Positions 27,735 through 35,897 of a stretch of 40,802 nt of DNA are shown piece by piece; the stretch's first letter is position 1; each line of letters starts with the position of its first letter. Origin of the DNA: an uncultured Enterovibrio sp. GTDB taxonomy: Bacteria; Pseudomonadota; Gammaproteobacteria; Enterobacterales; Vibrionaceae. The DNA lies in the NCBI GenBank assembly GCA_947040595.1, contig CAMRBZ010000006.1, positions 1 to 40,802 on the forward strand. The letters are read 5' to 3'. A model generated the notes under the pieces. It searched no databases, was not told where the DNA came from, and saw nothing but the letters and a program-made list of their open reading frames with translations. Made by a program: the position numbers and the translations under genes.

Positions 27735-28289
27735 ATGAAAATTATTTTTGCTGACGACATGCCTGAAATGCGTTCAGCAATGTTGGCATCATTAAAAGAA
27801 ATAGAAGGAGATTTTGGTCCTTTTGAAATATTAGAGCCCGCTAAAGACGGAAATGAACTGATTCAATTGGTTGAAAATAATCCTGATGTAGATTTAGTTT
27901 TGACTGATTTACGCATGCCCCATTTAGACGGCCTTTCTGCACTGGTCTATCTCATCGCAAATAAGAAATGCAACAAGATCGTCATGGTCTCAAGTGAAAG
28001 TATTGCGACGGTGAACAAAGTAGAAAAAGGCGCATTAGATATTGAAATAGAAGAAAAGATGACCTTGCTGGACAAAATAGCACATCGGGTTATTGATGAG
28101 GAAAGAGTCGAAGGAAAAATAAATTCTATTTTAACTGGATGTGAAAAGCTGAGCCTAGACCCGATTTCAATCGCTGAATACTATGGCGCAACTGGATATA
28201 TGAGAAAACCCATCTCAGGAAGAAAACTCTCGCATTTATTTGACAATTTAAGCACAAATAAACATTTCATCAGTATCGGTCTCGTTTGA
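27735..28289 (+). CDS. CheY-like response regulator with enlarged alpha4 region
   Basis: The protein is a single receiver domain of 184 residues with no output domain. It has the acidic pair D7-D8 (FADDMPE), phospho-acceptor D58 in LTDLRMPHLDG, Ser86/87 in MVSSES, and Lys158 in YMRKPIS. The distance between the Ser motif and GATGYMRKP is about 65 residues, against about 20 in CheY. So about 45 extra, charged and probably helical residues (around 90-145) are inserted at alpha4, the face CheY uses for partners. GGAG precedes the start. It is the first gene of the chemosensory cluster and probably the phosphoryl acceptor from the CheA/HPt pair. No output gene is seen nearby, so what it controls is unknown. 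Confidence 0.85.
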   Translation: MKIIFADDMPEMRSAMLASLKEIEGDFGPFEILEPAKDGNELIQLVENNPDVDLVLTDLRMPHLDGLSALVYLIANKKCNKIVMVSSESIATVNKVEKGALDIEIEEKMTLLDKIAHRVIDEERVEGKINSILTGCEKLSLDPISIAEYYGATGYMRKPISGRKLSHLFDNLSTNKHFISIGLV

Positions 28290-28401
28290 TCAAAATTATT
28301 TTATTTTTCTTCCTCTCTCTTTATTTTAAATTAAAAGTTTAAACAGAAAAGAATAACGCGAGATTTAATTAAAATTAACCTCAAAATATCTCTTGATTCA
28401 A

Positions 28402-28528
28402 TATACCCGAGACACTTGAAGATGCGTCTAGGCGGCAAACGAGTGAACGCCCTGAGCATAGAGAGACGATGAAATTGGCCAGAACGAGAGCAAGCAACAC
28501 TCACGCAGTTTCAAAGTCGACGGATATA
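28402..28528 (-). repeat. ERIC/IRU-like palindromic element, copy 7
   Basis: On the + strand it starts TATACCCGAGACACTTGAAG, has GAACGCCCTGAGCATAGAG and ends TTTCAAAGTCGACGGATATA. It lies between the response regulator and cheW. Confidence 0.88.
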
Positions 28529-28596
28529 GATGGACTATATGATTGCCCTGAACGAGAGCATATAACACCCGGCAGTTTCAAAGACGACAGGTATAT
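28529..28596 (-). repeat. Partial tandem duplicate of copy 7 (right half)
   Basis: TGGACTATATGATTGCCCTG, then GAACGAGAGC, then CCGGCAGTTTCAAAGACGAC and GGTATATA repeat the right half of the element directly after the full copy. This looks like a slippage or half-element duplication at the shared TATA end. Confidence 0.7.
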
Positions 28597-28654
28597 ACGG
28601 TTCAAATAATCAGGCGTATATCGTTTACTTTTTTACTCAGTGGGATCGAGATAA

Positions 28655-29212
28655 ATGATAGATAATGTAGAAATGACAGATTCAAATGCCGCATTAAAAA
28701 ACACGATAATAAACACAAAAATAATGCAAAAATATCTTATTTTCAGCATCAATGGTGAACCTTATGGGATCCCTCTTTTTTCAGTAAAAGAGGTCATCGG
28801 TATTGTTAAAATCACCCCTACCCCTCACGTACCCAACTTTTTTAAAGGCCTGATTAATTTAAGAGGTCGTATCATTTCAGTTATTGACATGCGATTAAAA
28901 CTCGGAATAGAAGAAATAAATTACGTTCCTAAAAAAACATCTATTATTATTTTCGATGTTAATGATTTGACAATTGGAAGTATTGTTGATGATGTAAATG
29001 AAGTCATCGGATTTACTGATGGACAAATTGAACAGAATTTAGAATTATCAAACTGCATTAAGAAAAAATACATCTTGAGCATTGCAAAATCTGTAGAAAA
29101 TGAATTAATCATCTTGTTAGACATACACAAAATGCTAAATCCAGAAGAACTCACATTAATCTCTGAGAACGCAATTAAAAAAGATCATGAAGTTTATTTA
29201 GATAACGAATAA
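28655..29212 (+). CDS. cheW: CheW-type coupling protein
   Basis: CheW links CheA to chemoreceptors in signalling arrays at the cytoplasmic membrane. The 185-residue protein carries one CheW domain from about residue 24 to 165. It includes KYLIFSINGEPYGIPLFSVKEV, TPTPHVPNFFKGLINLRG and RIISVIDMRLKLGI, the two-barrel hallmarks with the receptor-contact Arg in NLRG. An extra N-terminal tail of about 23 residues could reflect a start further in (ATG in MQKYLIF), but a weak GGGAT lies before 28655. The gene is AT-rich and lies 13 bases before the receptor gene, so the two are likely co-transcribed. Confidence 0.92.
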   Translation: MIDNVEMTDSNAALKNTIINTKIMQKYLIFSINGEPYGIPLFSVKEVIGIVKITPTPHVPNFFKGLINLRGRIISVIDMRLKLGIEEINYVPKKTSIIIFDVNDLTIGSIVDDVNEVIGFTDGQIEQNLELSNCIKKKYILSIAKSVENELIILLDIHKMLNPEELTLISENAIKKDHEVYLDNE

Positions 29213-29225
29213 AGGAATAAAAACC

Positions 29226-31370
29226 ATGTTCAAAGACCTGTCATTACGGGCAAAAATCGTTTTAGGTAATGCTATCAGCTTAATGTTTTTGGTCTGCATT
29301 TCGTTTATCAGTCTCGATAGCATGAAACAAATCAGAGAAACAGATCTATGGGTCGATCACACTCACAGAGTCATTAATAAATCTCTCACACTTCTCTCTT
29401 CAGCGAAAGATATGGAAACCGGAATGCGTGGTTATCTCCTTTCTGGAAAAGAAAGCTTTCTTCTGCCCTATAAAAATGGCAATCAATCCTTTTCTGAAAT
29501 TTTAATTGATTTAAAAAAGACCGTCAGTGATAACCCTGCACAAGTTTCTTTATTAGATGATATAAATAAAAGCATCATTGACTGGAAAACAAACATCACA
29601 GAAAAAGGAATTCTATTAAGAAAAGAAGTTGAAAACGAAAAAGACATGATACAGATGCACGACTTACTTTCAAAGTCAAAAGAAATGAATCATTTTGATA
29701 ACCTAAAAAAAATGATCGATAAATTCATATCTCGTGAACGCGAATTTTTAATAACCTCGGCGCCTTTACTCAGTAACTCGAAAGAACCTAATGATATAAA
29801 ACGTGAAAAAGAGGCATCTCAGAAAATAAACAAAGCATTACTGACGCATATCATGGCCTTAAAGATGGAAACAGAAATGCGGAATTATTTGCTTACCGGT
29901 GATGAAACCTCTCTTAAACGCTATAAAGAGAATGAAATTGAATCAAATAAAATAGCGTCAGATTTAAAATACTTAACTCAAAACACCCCCTCTCAACTTT
30001 CAACATTAAGAGAAATAGATTCTTTAATAGCCGATTGGAAATATAACTCAGCCGAAAAACAAATCCAATTAAAGCAAAGAATAAACAATGTAAAAACAAT
30101 GGATGATATCACTGAATTTGTTACGAAAGAAAATGGCGGGAATTATTTTGACACCTTTAGAAAACAGATTGAACGTTTTATCGACGAAGAAGAGATATTA
30201 ATGGAAAGGAGACTTAAAGAGAATGAAAATGTTGTTTCTCAAACTAATATTGTTATTCTATCAGGCATCATTATTGCGATATTGGTCTCTATTCCGATTG
30301 TATTTATACTGAGCAAATCTATCATGCAACCTTTTAACAAAATTTTCAAAGGACTGCATTCTTTTAGCTCAAGAGAATTAAATGAAATCAGCCTCGCTTT
30401 TACCAATGTCGTGCAACGGATGAGCCAAAGCGCTTTCCGCCTCGCCTGCGTATCTAAAAATATTGATAATGTCTCACAAAATCTTGCTCAAGTCTCCAAT
30501 CGTCAAGCCAGCTCTCTTGAAGAAACATCCGCTTGCACTGAAGAAATATCGGCTATGGTGAAAATCAATGTCCAATCAGCAGAAGAATCTCGGAATTTGT
30601 CAGAACAAGTCGGAAGTAAAATGACAGACCTCGAAAATGCAATGAATAAAATATCAGAATCTAATCATAAAATATCAGAATTAGTAAAAATCATTGCCGA
30701 AATAGGCATAAAAACAGAAATAATTGATGAGATTGTTTTTCAAACGAAATTACTTTCATTCAATGCCTCCGTAGAAGCTGAAAGAGCAGGAGAACATGGC
30801 CGAGGTTTTGCTGTTGTTGCACAAGAAGTCGGTAATTTAGCCAAAATGAGCGGAAAAGCAGCAAAAGATATCTCCATTATTGTAAAACAGAGTATCAATG
30901 AAGCAGAATCCATCGCCAAAGAAAATACACAACGCGTCGAAATAGGCAGCAACATTGTTTCAGAAACTAAACGTCAATCCGGTGTCGTCGCCGAAGGGGC
31001 CAATAAAATATTTGAAGCCTCTAATGAACAAGCAAAAGGGATCCTCGAAATAAGCAATGCAGTAGAATCAATTAATAAATTAACTCAACATGCCGCCTCT
31101 ATTGCCGACACGGCATCCTCATCAAGCTCAGAATTAAATAAAGAAGCCGAAAATTTAAATAGAATGGTTTTCAAACTGAATGGGTTTTTACAAGGAGGCG
31201 ATACAGAAGAAAATGAACATAATTTATTAGATGAAAATACAGTAAATGAATATGCGCTTCAATCACAAAGAAATGCAAGTTATAACCGCGAAAAAGAAAA
31301 TATCAATTTGCCACTTGGAGACTTTAATTCCCACACAGAAACAACGAAAACAGGTTGGGATAGGCTCTAA
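29226..31370 (+). CDS. Methyl-accepting chemotaxis protein with two CHASE3-like segments
   Basis: The protein is a membrane chemoreceptor of 714 residues. A first membrane helix lies at 10-30. Two related helical sensor segments follow: 32-175 with METGMRGYLLSGKESFLLPY and 200-330 with METEMRNYLLTGDETSLKRY, each resembling CHASE3. The second membrane helix is at 342-363. No convincing HAMP is seen, only a short linker at 365-400. The signalling hairpin tip is IDEIVFQTKLLSFNASVEAE followed by RAGEHGRGFAVVAQEV (about 500-535). Glutamine/glutamate-rich adaptation helices flank it. No C-terminal NWETF-like tether is present, and the tail ends GWDRL. The ligand is unknown. AGGAA precedes the ATG, and a repeat follows the stop. 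Confidence 0.93.
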   Translation: MFKDLSLRAKIVLGNAISLMFLVCISFISLDSMKQIRETDLWVDHTHRVINKSLTLLSSAKDMETGMRGYLLSGKESFLLPYKNGNQSFSEILIDLKKTVSDNPAQVSLLDDINKSIIDWKTNITEKGILLRKEVENEKDMIQMHDLLSKSKEMNHFDNLKKMIDKFISREREFLITSAPLLSNSKEPNDIKREKEASQKINKALLTHIMALKMETEMRNYLLTGDETSLKRYKENEIESNKIASDLKYLTQNTPSQLSTLREIDSLIADWKYNSAEKQIQLKQRINNVKTMDDITEFVTKENGGNYFDTFRKQIERFIDEEEILMERRLKENENVVSQTNIVILSGIIIAILVSIPIVFILSKSIMQPFNKIFKGLHSFSSRELNEISLAFTNVVQRMSQSAFRLACVSKNIDNVSQNLAQVSNRQASSLEETSACTEEISAMVKINVQSAEESRNLSEQVGSKMTDLENAMNKISESNHKISELVKIIAEIGIKTEIIDEIVFQTKLLSFNASVEAERAGEHGRGFAVVAQEVGNLAKMSGKAAKDISIIVKQSINEAESIAKENTQRVEIGSNIVSETKRQSGVVAEGANKIFEASNEQAKGILEISNAVESINKLTQHAASIADTASSSSSELNKEAENLNRMVFKLNGFLQGGDTEENEHNLLDENTVNEYALQSQRNASYNREKENINLPLGDFNSHTETTKTGWDRL

Positions 31371-31387
31371 ATTTTACATTGGAATTC

Positions 31388-31514
31388 TATACCCAAGACA
31401 CTTCAAGATGCGCGCCTGCGGTAAAGGAGTGAAGGCCCTGACCATAGATTGATTCTATGGTTGACCTGAGCGAGAGCAGCCAACACCCAGGCAGCTTCAA
31501 AAGCGACGGGTATA
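31388..31514 (-). repeat. ERIC/IRU-like palindromic element, copy 8
   Basis: Full-length copy. On the + strand it starts TATACCCAAGACACTTCAAG and ends CTTCAAAAGCGACGGGTATA, with GAAGGCCCTGACCATAGAT in the centre. It fills the spacer between the receptor gene and cheR. Confidence 0.9.
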
Positions 31515-31541
31515 TAATGATAAGTCACATAGAGAAGAGAG

Positions 31542-32354
31542 ATGTCACTTAGATATTTTCAGAGATTAATCAGAAATCATGCTGGAATTCATATTCCAAA
31601 AGAAAAATTCAGCATGATAGAAATCCGATTAAATCCTCGTCTAAAAGCATTAGGACTTCGCTCATTCAAAGAATACGCAAATTATTTAATTGCAGACCCT
31701 TTTGGAGATGAATTAATTGAATTCACAAATGCACTCACTACAAATAAAACGGTTTTTTTTAGAGAAAAGTATCACTTTGATTTTTTAAAATCTTATCTTG
31801 AAAAAGAATCGCCATCTGATATGACCTACCTATGGTCGGCAGCGTGTTCTAGTGGAGAAGAAGCATATTCTTTGAGTATTATATGTAACCTCATCGCCTT
31901 CTCTTCCCCGAGATTTAATTATCGAATTTTAGCCAGCGACATTGACACAAACAAAATAGAAATAGCAAAAAAAGGGATTTATAAAAAAAACGCACTTTCA
32001 AATGTGCCAAAACACTTAATAAGGACCTATTTTTCAACAATTCATGAACCCTTTGAAAATAAAGTCATTGTCTCAGAAAAATTAAAGGAAAATATTAAAT
32101 TTAGAGCGTATAATTTAACAAAAAAGAATAACAACATCGGGATCTCATTCCATTACATATTTTTACGGAATGTTCTTTATTATTTTAGTGATGATGTTGT
32201 TTTGAAGGTTCTTCGTTCATTGATTAAACAATTAAATATTGGCGGTTTGATCTTTGTTAGCTTGACTGAAACATTACACCATTTAGATTTAGGATTGCTT
32301 CCCATCGGATCCTCTGTCTACAGAAAAATAAAACATATGAATGAAAAAACATGA
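31542..32354 (+). CDS. cheR: CheR-type chemoreceptor glutamate methyltransferase
   Basis: CheR methylates receptor glutamates using SAM, setting adaptation. The 270-residue protein has the N-terminal helical domain (YFQRLIRNHAGIHIPKEKFSM), then TTNKTVFFREKYHF, where the family usually has T.NETxFFR. The SAM-binding WSAACSSGEEAYSLSI lies at 98-113, followed by ILASDIDTNKIEIAKKGIY and the late motif FLRNVLYYF. The Glu-to-Lys change in TNKT is notable. Purine-rich AGAGAAGAGAG precedes the start. Its end overlaps cheB by ATGA, so the genes are translationally coupled. Confidence 0.92.
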   Translation: MSLRYFQRLIRNHAGIHIPKEKFSMIEIRLNPRLKALGLRSFKEYANYLIADPFGDELIEFTNALTTNKTVFFREKYHFDFLKSYLEKESPSDMTYLWSAACSSGEEAYSLSIICNLIAFSSPRFNYRILASDIDTNKIEIAKKGIYKKNALSNVPKHLIRTYFSTIHEPFENKVIVSEKLKENIKFRAYNLTKKNNNIGISFHYIFLRNVLYYFSDDVVLKVLRSLIKQLNIGGLIFVSLTETLHHLDLGLLPIGSSVYRKIKHMNEKT

Positions 32355-32938
32355 AAAAAATTCAAGTGACTTCCAGTGGATTCTATTGTTCATTGAATGA
32401 AGCTTCCATTATATCCACGTTTTTGGGTGTCTATGTCTGTATTTGGTACAAACGCTTAAACAGGGGGGGGATGTGTCATTTTAGACTTCCTCGAGCTCTC
32501 TACATCGCCCCTTCTGAAAGACAATTTAAATTAAATCAATTAGAAAACGAAAATATTATCATAGAAATAATCGATTTTCCTCCAATGAATGTGTTTGCTC
32601 CTTCCGTTTATTTTATTTTTAATTCTGCCCTTAAAATAAAGAACAAATTATTAATTTGTTCTTTATTAAGTGGCATGGGCAATGATGGCGATCAATGTTT
32701 AAAAAAACAAAAAGAAAGAGGCGCAATTACTTTAATACAAGATGAAAAAAGCAGTGTTGTCTTTGGTATGGTGCGTGAAGCAAAGAAAATTGGTGCCGAA
32801 TGTCAAACCCTCCCATTAAGTCGCATTTCAGCCTGTCTTCACGAAATCTTAAAATTGCATTTATATAAAATGCAGCTCAATTCTGTCGAATATCGAAAAA
32901 ACGATGATCACATGGAAATAAGCAAGGAGCGAATATGA
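32351..32938 (+). CDS. cheB: Truncated, probably inactive CheB methylesterase domain
   Basis: Normal CheB has a receiver domain plus a methylesterase or deamidase domain with a Ser-His-Asp triad. This 195-residue protein has no receiver. It keeps the later part of the esterase fold: ALYIAPSERQFKL at 49-61, FAPSVYFIFNSAL near 82-94, LLSGMGNDGDQCL with the expected Asp112, and IQDEKSSVVFGMVREAKKIGA. The start should hold the Ser motif (GASTGG) and the His motif (QHMP), but it reads VTSSGFYCSLNEASIIS and VCIWYK and is about 30 residues short. The other frames do not restore these motifs. It overlaps cheR and cheA by ATGA on both sides, so the reading frame is maintained, perhaps for coupling. 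A G8 run lies at 32463-32470. Confidence 0.8.
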   Translation: MKKIQVTSSGFYCSLNEASIISTFLGVYVCIWYKRLNRGGMCHFRLPRALYIAPSERQFKLNQLENENIIIEIIDFPPMNVFAPSVYFIFNSALKIKNKLLICSLLSGMGNDGDQCLKKQKERGAITLIQDEKSSVVFGMVREAKKIGAECQTLPLSRISACLHEILKLHLYKMQLNSVEYRKNDDHMEISKERI

Positions 32939-34728
32939 GTTTAAACAGTGAAAAATCAAACATAGTTGAAGCTTTGGATCTGATATCTACTATTCGCATT
33001 CATTTAAAATCTGGATTTGATGTTGAAACGACACTCCCTTTAATTACGAAACTCATTTCCTTGAGTAACAGAAAAAATCAATCAGATAAACAAAGTGATT
33101 TTTTTGTTTTTCGTTCAATCAATCAAATCATTGTTCATGCAGAAACCATATTGGAACTTCATCACCTAAATAAAATCGAAATAAACAATCAACTGATACA
33201 ATCTTTAGAGTCTGTCCTTGATATTACAGAAGAAGACATTTTAATCTCTTCAAAAGAAACTTCTTTTCTTTCTTACTCAAAGAAAAGAGACGAAATATTA
33301 AAAACATTCTCAATCGAGATATTTAATGCAATGAACATTGACGTCTCATATTCTGAGGATATTTTAAACTCAAATATAGATATAAAAAAAGAAATCGATT
33401 ATATTTCTGATTTAATTTGCCCTCTAGAAAATAATAAAATAAACACATCAAAAAACATCCCCTCCACCCCGCTTTCAAAATCAAAATCGAAATTGTTAAA
33501 AAATAAATTTGAAGTCACTACACGAGTAAAATCCTACTTACTAGAGCAAATGATGAATTACTCTGAAGAATTAGTTCAAATTAGAAATGCATTAGCTGAT
33601 TACGCAGAAAATAAACAAGATCAAAAGTTAAGTGAAATATCAAGCAAATTAAAATCTGTTTCTGACAATGTATTATCAGACCTATTAAAAACACGCATGA
33701 TGCCTATTGGTGGAATATTAAGCAAATACCGTCGAATTGTTCGAGACCTCTCAAATGAATTAAATAAAAAGGTTGAACTAGAGATTATTGGGGAAAACAT
33801 TGAGTTGGACAATAATGTCATTGAAGCCATTACTGAACCCTTAACTCACTTAGTTCGAAATGCAATTGATCACGCATTTGAATCACCTCTCGAACGCACT
33901 AAAAACGGAAAGACTCTTGTCGGAAAATTAATTATTCATGCCTATAATGCATCAGGAAAAGTAATTATTAACATTTCTGACGACGGACAAGGAATTGACA
34001 CAAATAAACTTGTAGAAAAAGCCATCAATACAAACTTAATTACGAATGAACAGCTTAACCTCATGACAGAAAAAAACAAACTCGAACTTATTTTTCATCC
34101 AGGACTCAGCACATCAGAGAGCATCAGCACATTATCAGGCAGAGGTGTTGGCATGGGAGCTGTAAAACAGAAAGTGGAAGAAATAAACGGACATATTGAT
34201 ATATCCTCTGTTAAACACAAAGGAACAAACATTGCTTTATCTTTTCCACTGACAATGGCAACCTTAAAAGTTATCTTATTCACGATTAAAGGGATTACTT
34301 ATGCCATTCCTTCTGGTGATATTAAAAATATTATAGGAATGAGCAAAGATGACAATGACAGTACAGTGCGCTTTGATTCAGTTCCCCCTCTATTGCACAA
34401 AAATAATCAAGTTATTTCACTGATTGACCCCATTGAATACCTTGATGGATTAGCAGGCACACAATCGCTGAAAACCTCTTATCTCAATAAAGAGCAAATC
34501 AGTGTCGTTGTTTTTCGTTATCAGGATATAAATTGGGGACTCTGTGTGGATTCTGTCAACGCATTTTTAGACATTGTCATTAAACCTTTAGAAACACAAA
34601 TGAACACAAATAATATTTTTGCAGGTGCCGCCGTTCTTGGAAACGGTGATTTAGCCTTGGTGATTGATCTCAAAAAAATAGTGATTTTTTCAAGATCTCA
34701 CACGTCATTTTACACAGAAGCCATCTAG
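32935..34728 (+). CDS. cheA: CheA-type histidine kinase lacking a recognisable phosphorylatable P1 domain
   Basis: CheA is the chemosensory kinase. In this 597-residue protein the dimerisation domain (about 196-262, ending LKTRMMPIGGILSKYRR) and the ATP-binding domain are intact. The ATP-binding domain has N-box LVRNAIDHAFE 306-316, G1 SDDGQGID, F-box IFHPGLSTSE and G2 GRGVGMGAVK. The CheW-like P5 domain (about 441-590) is also intact. The first 130 residues are helical and reminiscent of P1. Where P1 should read F.AAHSIKG they read FRSINQIIVHAETILELHH, with no HSIKG-type His site. Residues 130-195 are a low-complexity Ser/Lys linker. A separate HPt protein downstream can supply the missing histidine. 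The start overlaps cheB by ATGA. Confidence 0.92.
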   Translation: MSLNSEKSNIVEALDLISTIRIHLKSGFDVETTLPLITKLISLSNRKNQSDKQSDFFVFRSINQIIVHAETILELHHLNKIEINNQLIQSLESVLDITEEDILISSKETSFLSYSKKRDEILKTFSIEIFNAMNIDVSYSEDILNSNIDIKKEIDYISDLICPLENNKINTSKNIPSTPLSKSKSKLLKNKFEVTTRVKSYLLEQMMNYSEELVQIRNALADYAENKQDQKLSEISSKLKSVSDNVLSDLLKTRMMPIGGILSKYRRIVRDLSNELNKKVELEIIGENIELDNNVIEAITEPLTHLVRNAIDHAFESPLERTKNGKTLVGKLIIHAYNASGKVIINISDDGQGIDTNKLVEKAINTNLITNEQLNLMTEKNKLELIFHPGLSTSESISTLSGRGVGMGAVKQKVEEINGHIDISSVKHKGTNIALSFPLTMATLKVILFTIKGITYAIPSGDIKNIIGMSKDDNDSTVRFDSVPPLLHKNNQVISLIDPIEYLDGLAGTQSLKTSYLNKEQISVVVFRYQDINWGLCVDSVNAFLDIVIKPLETQMNTNNIFAGAAVLGNGDLALVIDLKKIVIFSRSHTSFYTEAI

Positions 34729-34747
34729 CGAGTCAGTAAAAGATCAC

Positions 34748-34769
34748 CGCTTTATTGAGCGTTTTTTTC
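34748..34769 (+). terminator. Rho-independent terminator after cheA
   Basis: CGCT-TTATTG-AGCG is followed by seven Ts and then a long pyrimidine tract. It ends the cheR-cheB-cheA unit 20 bases after the stop and separates it from the HPt gene. Confidence 0.7.
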
Positions 34770-34785
34770 TTTTTCTTTTTTCACT

Positions 34786-34909
34786 TATACCCAAAGTAAT
34801 TGAAGGTGCTCACCAGCACCCAGCGAGTGAAGCCCCTCTGCATAGATCGACTCTGTGATTGGGCTGAACGAGCGTAGCCAACACCCACGCAGCGTCAAAG
34901 GCGACGGGG
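34786..34909 (-). repeat. ERIC/IRU-like palindromic element, copy 9
   Basis: On the + strand it starts TATACCCAAAGTAATTGAAG and has GAAGCCCCTCTGCATAGAT and TGTGATTGGGCTGAACGAGC. The right end is AAAGGCGACGGGG, so the closing TATA is lost. It lies between the cheA terminator and the HPt gene. Confidence 0.88.
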
Positions 34910-34958
34910 AAAATAAGATGATGTCGATTTCTTTTTTATCATTAAATGGAGAGGTAAT

Positions 34959-35897
34959 ATGAAATTGTTTGGTCGTTTTTTACTCGATGAAAATCTCATT
35001 TCAGCATCCGATTTAGCGGATGCCATGATTGAGCAAATTAAAACGATGCCAAATAATATCGTGATCTTATACGAAAAAAAGATGATTAATTCAAAACAAA
35101 TACTCGATATTATTTCACTGCAAAATAATGAATCCTTAGATCTTCGTTCTGCTTGTATTCAACTTGGGATTTGGCAACATGAATTTACAAATATGATCCA
35201 GGAAGAAGTATTAAAGCAACGGATCCCTCTTAGTCAAATATTAATCAATAAAGGTTTGATAAAACCACAGGTCATCTTGCCTGTTTTAAAAAAATACCAC
35301 GCATACTGCGCAGAGAATAGCAATGACTTTACTCTCTTTTCCGAGATAGATGACATTGAAAATGAACAAAAAAATACAATTCAAAAAATTCGCTTTGAAC
35401 CTGATTTTTCACAAGTTAAAATTAATGATCTTTCAGAATACCTTGCGTTTTTTTCTGACGAGAAAATCGTCTCCTTAGAGCTTGCGATTTTAGTGATTGA
35501 AGGGCTTGCAGACAACACGGAAGATGCAGAAGAAAGATTGGATTCATTTTTTATTGAATTTCATTCACTCAAAGGCTCCGCAAGAGCAATAGGCGCTATT
35601 TTATCTGAAAATCTAATACATGAAACAGAAGACGTTTTGTCTTTTTATAAACGATTTTTGCACAAAATAGAAAAAAATGATTTTGTACTTTTGGCTGCTG
35701 CCAACTTACACGTTCTTGATGTATTAGGGCATTTGAGGAACGCGCTTATTTCTTCTGGCTCTGAAGAAGGATTTTGGTCCAATCAAGCACATAAAAATCA
35801 TTATTTAAAAGTATTAACTGAAGTTAAATCCTTAAGTGAAAAGATGAATTCACGAGGTTATGTCATCGATATTGAAGATGTACGAGAAATGTTTTAA
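34959..35897 (+). CDS. HPt domain protein with MshEN-like N-terminal repeats
   Basis: The 312-residue soluble protein has two parts. Residues 3-26 (LFGRFLLDENLISASDLADA...), about 32-55, 61-84 and 90-113 (LSQILINKGLIKPQVI...) are four helical repeats. They follow the 24-residue pattern xLGxxLLxxGLIxxxxLxxxLxxQ of MshEN domains, which in some type II secretion and pilus ATPases bind cyclic di-GMP. The usual first Arg is Leu in repeat 1. Residues about 155-265 form an HPt domain with FFIEFHSLKGSARAIG, where His202 is the expected phosphoryl site, and HETEDVLSFYKR behind it. Downstream of a CheA without a P1 histidine, it is the natural phosphotransfer partner, with the CheY-like protein as acceptor. 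GGAGAGG precedes the start. Confidence 0.85.
   Translation: MKLFGRFLLDENLISASDLADAMIEQIKTMPNNIVILYEKKMINSKQILDIISLQNNESLDLRSACIQLGIWQHEFTNMIQEEVLKQRIPLSQILINKGLIKPQVILPVLKKYHAYCAENSNDFTLFSEIDDIENEQKNTIQKIRFEPDFSQVKINDLSEYLAFFSDEKIVSLELAILVIEGLADNTEDAEERLDSFFIEFHSLKGSARAIGAILSENLIHETEDVLSFYKRFLHKIEKNDFVLLAAANLHVLDVLGHLRNALISSGSEEGFWSNQAHKNHYLKVLTEVKSLSEKMNSRGYVIDIEDVREMF

Follow-up and report, generated by a model that had tools for sequence, protein, structure and literature searches.

In a stretch of 40,802 nt from an uncultured Enterovibrio sp. (assembly GCA_947040595.1, CAMRBZ010000006.1; hereafter the window, which is contig 6 of its own genome, a 3.6 Mb assembly in 374 contigs), we analyzed a chemosensory module of seven plus-strand genes (27735-35897, based on open reading frames (ORFs) and Pfam). 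Its CheA lacks the phosphoacceptor histidine, and the neighboring gene encodes a separate histidine phosphotransfer (HPt) protein. We consider it probable that the two proteins form a bipartite CheA, in which the CheA core phosphorylates the separate P1 domain in trans and the phosphoryl group then passes to Asp58 of the response regulator of the module. An initial annotation from the sequence alone had proposed such a split kinase with the phosphotransfer site on a separate protein. The conservation of the gene pair in 13 genomes supported this proposal, and both ORFs were confirmed at the proposed positions (Table 1).

CheA and its separate P1 protein

The HPt protein was present in 13 of 18 genomes of the same genus, the own genome counted, and the same 13 genomes had a CheA orthologue (E≤1e-150; the best other CheA had an E value of 4.9e-73). 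A homologue search for the gene pair, one of the checks suggested with the initial annotation, found both genes adjacent and on the same strand in all 13 genomes, one of which is assembled in 3 contigs. In 12/12 relatives, the seven module genes lay together in identical order. The identity of CheA and the HPt protein to the window copies was 44-57% in 11 relatives and 91-96% in the near relative G002, with 96% for the HPt protein of G002. Because the genes were adjacent in 13 genomes and both were conserved, the pairing is not due to chance.

The surroundings of the module varied. Upstream, a 299-amino acid (aa) ORF was present in six genomes, the nearest large ORF had 714-730 aa in five, and the window and G002 shared an 888-aa ORF, which we take to be glnD. 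The settings of L069, L070, and L071 were judged from ORF lengths only; flanking proteins were read for eight relatives, and those of G002 matched those of the window. Since the limits of the module were constant while the surroundings varied, the HPt gene is tied to the module.

Outside the genus, no convincing match to the HPt protein was found in the remaining genomes of a set of 199 relatives; a match in G179 (19.4 bits, with stops inside) was not counted as a full-length homologue. The HPt profile detected only the own genome among 369 genomes of the class (E≤1e-6), and among 398 genomes of the phylum (E≤1e-5), the only addition to the own genome was a weak match confined to P1 (G894, 28.9 bits, positions 188-267, 687-aa frame), which was also not counted as a full-length homologue. 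The regulator profile retrieved only the own genome from the 369 class genomes (E≤1e-25). Queries P0002 and P0004 did not match plasmids, and a scan of genome contigs with P0002 returned a single locus, in the near relative.

The dimerization, ATPase, and CheW-like domains of CheA followed the order expected of a CheA histidine kinase. HATPase_c and CheW exceeded the Pfam curated cut-offs in the window protein, while H-kinase_dim reached 15.6 bits (cut-off 23); at E≤1, each of the three matched 13/13 orthologues. The N, G1, F, and G2 boxes were present in all 13. The earlier claim that P3, P4, and P5 are intact thus held for P4 and P5, while P3 gave only a weak match. Residue 408 in the G2 box, GRGVGM(D)A, was Gly in the window and G002 and Asp in the other 11. 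The linker residues E141, D142, E153, Y156, and L160 were invariant in the 13 orthologues, and no receiver domain was found in them by Pfam. A tree of the CheA core was set aside, as it warned of meeting long branches and held no labeled chemosensory classes.

Pfam detected no Hpt domain in any of the 13 CheA orthologues at E≤1, and H-x-x-K-[GS] was absent from residues 1-195 in all of them, so that none possessed an Hpt domain of its own with HxxKG. This agrees with the proposal that the N-terminus lacks an HSIKG-type site. The stretch SINQII (residues 61-66), which had been assigned to the phospho-His position, did not align there: the profile alignment placed N48 at this position. No His occurred in the predicted second helix and the following loop (residues 30-52) of the window protein. 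Its histidines before residue 195 were at 23, 68, 76, and 77, and the best conserved His column among the orthologues, position 23, reached 6/13. Conservation of His68, His76, or His77, named beforehand as evidence against a split kinase, was not found (3/13, 1/13, and 1/13, respectively).

Structure prediction for CheA residues 1-133, also suggested earlier as a check, gave five helices in a P1-like bundle. The ratio of nonsynonymous to synonymous substitution rates (dN/dS) of the N-terminal region was 0.39, indicating fast evolution. Based on the model, CheA probably keeps a His-less, fast-evolving P1-like bundle, and the P1 fold is not lost. The description as a CheA without a P1 histidine was right, with the fold itself probably retained, and we rejected the complete absence of P1 because of the predicted five-helix bundle.

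The HPt protein matched Pfam Hpt in 13/13 genomes at E≤1 (window 21.1 bits, below the cut-off of 24.6), and the proposed phosphorylation site, His202, was invariant. A quartet of His, Lys, His, and Glu at +0/+3/+19/+22 was found in 13/13 HPt proteins and in 18/18 ordinary P1 domains, a narrow sample chosen by HxxKG, nearly all of one kind of CheA by look (L063, without P1 by motif, was excluded). Six other HPts, taken from seven non-CheA matches outside the module (a contig 30 match of 13.3 bits was excluded), had His at +19 in 0/6 and Glu at +22 in 5/6, so that Glu at +22 is not diagnostic. For the comparison with the T. maritima P1, we assumed its residue numbers and residue network from general knowledge; the aligned letters were computed here. 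The model of the C-terminal half showed a predicted five-helix P1 fold, and no CheW domain was found in the 13 members at E≤1. As judged from sequence and model, the detached HPt is a CheA-type P1. A generic HPt identity was rejected, since the protein has a second His and a fold of the CheA type. The contrast drawn earlier, that both partners of the split CheA of R. sphaeroides are CheA-derived and the partners here are not, did not hold for the same reason.

The N-terminal half had been described as MshEN-like repeats. The similarity was real but weak: NF053729, an MshE-related motif for binding cyclic di-GMP (c-di-GMP), matched 13/13 HPt proteins at E≤0.1, with 31.3 bits in the window against a cut-off of 38. 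Residues 3-26, 27-31, and 32-55 agreed with the spacing of 24+5+24 residues given for the MshEN double motif in the available part of its description (PMC5013675). The Gln that ends each motif was kept in 12/13 (motif I) and 13/13 (motif II). The Arg of RLG was missing from motif I in 13/13, which read LFG, LLG, ILG, or TLG (Leu-Gly kept in 9/13), and motif II of the HPt protein had no RLG; the full motif RLGxx(L/V/I)(L/V/I)xxG..LxxxLxxQ, twice with a 5-residue linker, did not occur. Because of these losses in both motifs, c-di-GMP binding by the repeats appears doubtful, although a perfect motif is possibly not required, as far as the same source goes (PMC5013675). The model of this half showed four short-long helix pairs (2-27, 33-58, 62-87, and 91-119), a predicted fold that was left unmatched by a fold search that hardly probed this half.

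Proposed phosphate route and alternatives

The regulator was the only module protein in the window with a receiver-domain match, which stopped at residue 100; Pfam found no output domain in it. D7, D8, D58, S86, and K158 were invariant in the 13 proteins and presumably represent the acidic pair, the phospho-Asp, the Ser/Thr, and the Lys of a receiver. Ser86 and Lys158 are 72 residues apart, while the corresponding spacing in E. coli CheY is 22 residues. The protein is thus not a compact receiver and has about 50 extra, conserved residues. D58 is the likely end point of the phosphate route.

The gene order, the conservation, the motifs, and the lack of a His site in CheA are direct observations, and the folds are predictions. 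From these, we infer the following route. The signaling complex would consist of the receptor, CheW, and domains P3-P5 of CheA. P4 would bind ATP, while the N-terminal bundle of CheA itself, seemingly a P1 fold that no longer has its His, could not be phosphorylated. Instead, P4 would act in trans on the separate P1 protein and phosphorylate its His202, which, as expected from the protein families, would pass the phosphoryl group to Asp58. The MshEN-like repeats would most likely tether or gate this shuttle. In a further-reaching version, which is speculative and rather unlikely, the repeats would bind c-di-GMP, a related ligand, or a partner, and this binding would decide whether phosphate from the chemoreceptor array is passed on to the regulator; the His-less P1 of CheA would offer the detached P1 a built-in docking site or compete with it.

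Several observations weigh against a bipartite CheA with a His-less P1. At the profile-aligned phospho-His column, His was present in 4/13 orthologues (L068, L069, L071, and L075), which form one clade and lack the following Lys-Gly, and L067, L070, L073, and L074 carried a His nine columns earlier. The P1 match score of the CheA N-terminus was 23.9, and chemoreceptor windows reached up to 21.5 in a control of 56 windows over the seven module proteins; the match alone is therefore insufficient to claim a pseudo-P1. None of 300 column shuffles reached the score, a weak control that destroys helix periodicity. With the P1-like prediction for the bundle and the four histidines before residue 195, these scattered His residues would fit autophosphorylation of CheA on a non-canonical N-terminal His, such as His68, with the HPt protein as a side branch or phosphate sink. 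We regard this as very unlikely, since no His column is conserved, the H-x-x-K-[GS] motif is absent throughout, and the region evolves fast. Also unfavorable is the gap between cheA and the HPt gene in the window. It is 230 bp long and contains a repeat as well as a weak hairpin resembling a terminator, which makes a single transcription unit less clear there; over the region, 3 terminator-like sites were found compared to a mean of 4.9 in shuffled sequences. In the relatives, the gap is 38-144 bp, and no terminator-like site was found in that of L069, the one relative scanned. From these gaps, cotranscription of both genes is likely in the relatives.

This gap, together with the usual role of generic HPt proteins as partners of hybrid kinases, could also mean that the HPt protein serves another (hybrid histidine) kinase and merely adjoins a dead CheA. 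We give this little credence: the second His and the fold match the P1 of CheA and not the other six HPts studied here, all 13 CheA orthologues retain the ATP boxes, and the gene pair stays together across three settings. A more serious possibility, which we nevertheless consider unlikely, is that the genome of the window carries only a decaying, nonfunctional remnant of the pathway, in which case the bipartite CheA may still hold for the relatives. The 996-bp deletion inside the CheD-CheB gene, the dispersed repeats between module genes, and the genome size of 3.6 Mb, compared to 5.2-5.7 Mb in 11 of the 12 module-carrying relatives and 3.7 Mb in the twelfth, are consistent with decay. The other genes, however, are open, with dN/dS values of 0.08-0.21 versus G002 (most of this divergence may predate the deletion), and the metagenome-type assembly may itself have dropped the CheD-CheB stretch.

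Other features of the module

CheD and CheB were encoded by a single ORF of 505-591 aa in 12/12 relatives, and Pfam CheD and CheB_methylest matched the three CheD-CheB ORFs scanned. The gene overlaps the start of cheA by 4 bp. The window copy has lost a stretch in frame by a clean deletion, including the STGG and QHIP motif stretches of CheB, which we take to hold the catalytic Ser and His. Because these stretches are gone, this genome probably has impaired adaptation, provided that the loss is not an assembly artifact. By eye, the middle of the fusion looks like a receiver without the acidic pair. No CheD-CheB fusion was apparent from titles or the starts of abstracts among the literature matches listed.

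All 13 chemoreceptors ended with W-[ND]-R-L (codons 31356-31367 in the window). By analogy to the C-terminal pentapeptide of E. coli chemoreceptors, which is a tether, this end may perhaps tether CheR or CheD/CheB.

A dispersed element of about 127 bp lies at two intergenic sites inside the module (31388-31518 and 34784-34906) and occurred at no fewer than 46 places in the own genome, a lower bound because scoring covered 40 of the 740 first-look candidates. A second chemosensory cluster (L079, contig 43 of the own genome) has its own CheA bearing P1, in the order CheY, CheA, CheW, methyl-accepting chemotaxis protein (MCP), CheR, CheD, and CheB, with CheD and CheB as separate genes; except for CheA and CheW, these names were assigned by eye from ORF size and start.

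Table 1. Positions of the module genes and of features within them.
Feature	Position	Strand	Remarks
Response regulator	27735..28289	+	184 aa; D58 codon 27906-27908; Response_reg match 3-100
CheW coupling protein	28655..29212	+	PF01584, 111 bits
Chemoreceptor	29226..31370	+	two CHASE3 stretches and MCP signaling domain; C-terminus W-D-R-L
CheR methyltransferase	31542..32354	+	PF01739, PF03705
CheD-CheB fusion, internally deleted	32351..32938	+	996 bp missing at 32498/32499 vs G002
CheA kinase without phosphoacceptor His site	32935..34728	+	597 aa
CheA His-less P1-like domain	32935..33333	+	residues 1-133; five predicted helices
CheA acidic linker motif, conserved, 3' of pseudo-P1	33340..33414	+	residues 136-160
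CheA P3 dimerization region	33517..33666	+	residues 195-244; weak match
CheA P4 ATP-binding domain	33838..34254	+	residues 302-440; N, G1, F, G2 boxes
CheA P5 CheW-like domain	34270..34683	+	residues 446-583
Terminator-like hairpin between cheA and HPt gene	34748..34761	+	
HPt protein	34959..35897	+	312 aa
Four MshEN-like helix-turn-helix repeats of HPt protein	34965..35300	+	residues 3-114; first two fit 24+5+24
CheA-type P1 (HPt) domain of HPt protein	35418..35855	+	residues 154-299
His202 codon, predicted phosphorylation site	35562..35564	+	

Comparison with known systems

A detached P1 is a known but uncommon arrangement, and its form here is unusual. According to the accessible part of Berry et al. 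2023 (PMC10782961), 98.3% of the surveyed CheAs contain an Hpt domain, and a part of the Hpt-less CheAs have it as a separate gene in the operon. These bipartite CheAs resemble the one described here in that a CheA core without Hpt match is adjoined by an HPt gene. They differ, as far as described there, in that the CheA studied here seemingly keeps a His-less P1-like bundle and MshEN-like repeats are joined to its detached P1; no word in the main text of PMC10782961 starts with MshEN or Vibrio. In our literature searches, we met no MshEN-like fusion on a detached P1, no His-less P1 retained on CheA, and no such split-CheA module confined to one genus, and we found no literature on a chemosensory CheA of Enterovibrio. 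In this module, CheA is naturally split in a compact form, and one of the two partners seemingly retains a dead copy of the domain that moved out. It allows us to ask what P1 does beyond carrying phosphate, and the detached P1 could admit a second input, a nucleotide or location signal, that sets how much of the array signal gets through to the regulator. As both genes are conserved across 13 genomes, intact copies are available.

In Synechocystis, Hik36-Hik43 (PilL-N/PilL-C) is a split CheA that acts with Rre6 (PMC7656254), and, in the part of that paper available, an HPt-bearing and a kinase-bearing protein likewise act jointly on one regulator. Unlike the module described here, which we likened to it by description and not by sequence, Hik36-Hik43 is linked to pili, aggregation, and biofilm (PMC7656254); a further difference is that no receiver was found in the CheA studied here. 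R. sphaeroides CheA3/CheA4 is also split; there, the His-bearing partner contains a second P5 (PMC6829392). In the accessible parts of the sources, CheA3 includes a P5/CheW-like domain of its own as well as a phosphatase region (PMC6829392, PMC10782961), whereas the HPt protein had no CheW match. The module described here is of the same kind as these split CheAs and thus has precedents. Compared to the MshEN c-di-GMP receptor, as far as its description was available, the HPt protein has lost the Arg of RLG but shares the 24+5+24 spacing and the Gln of both motifs (PMC5013675).

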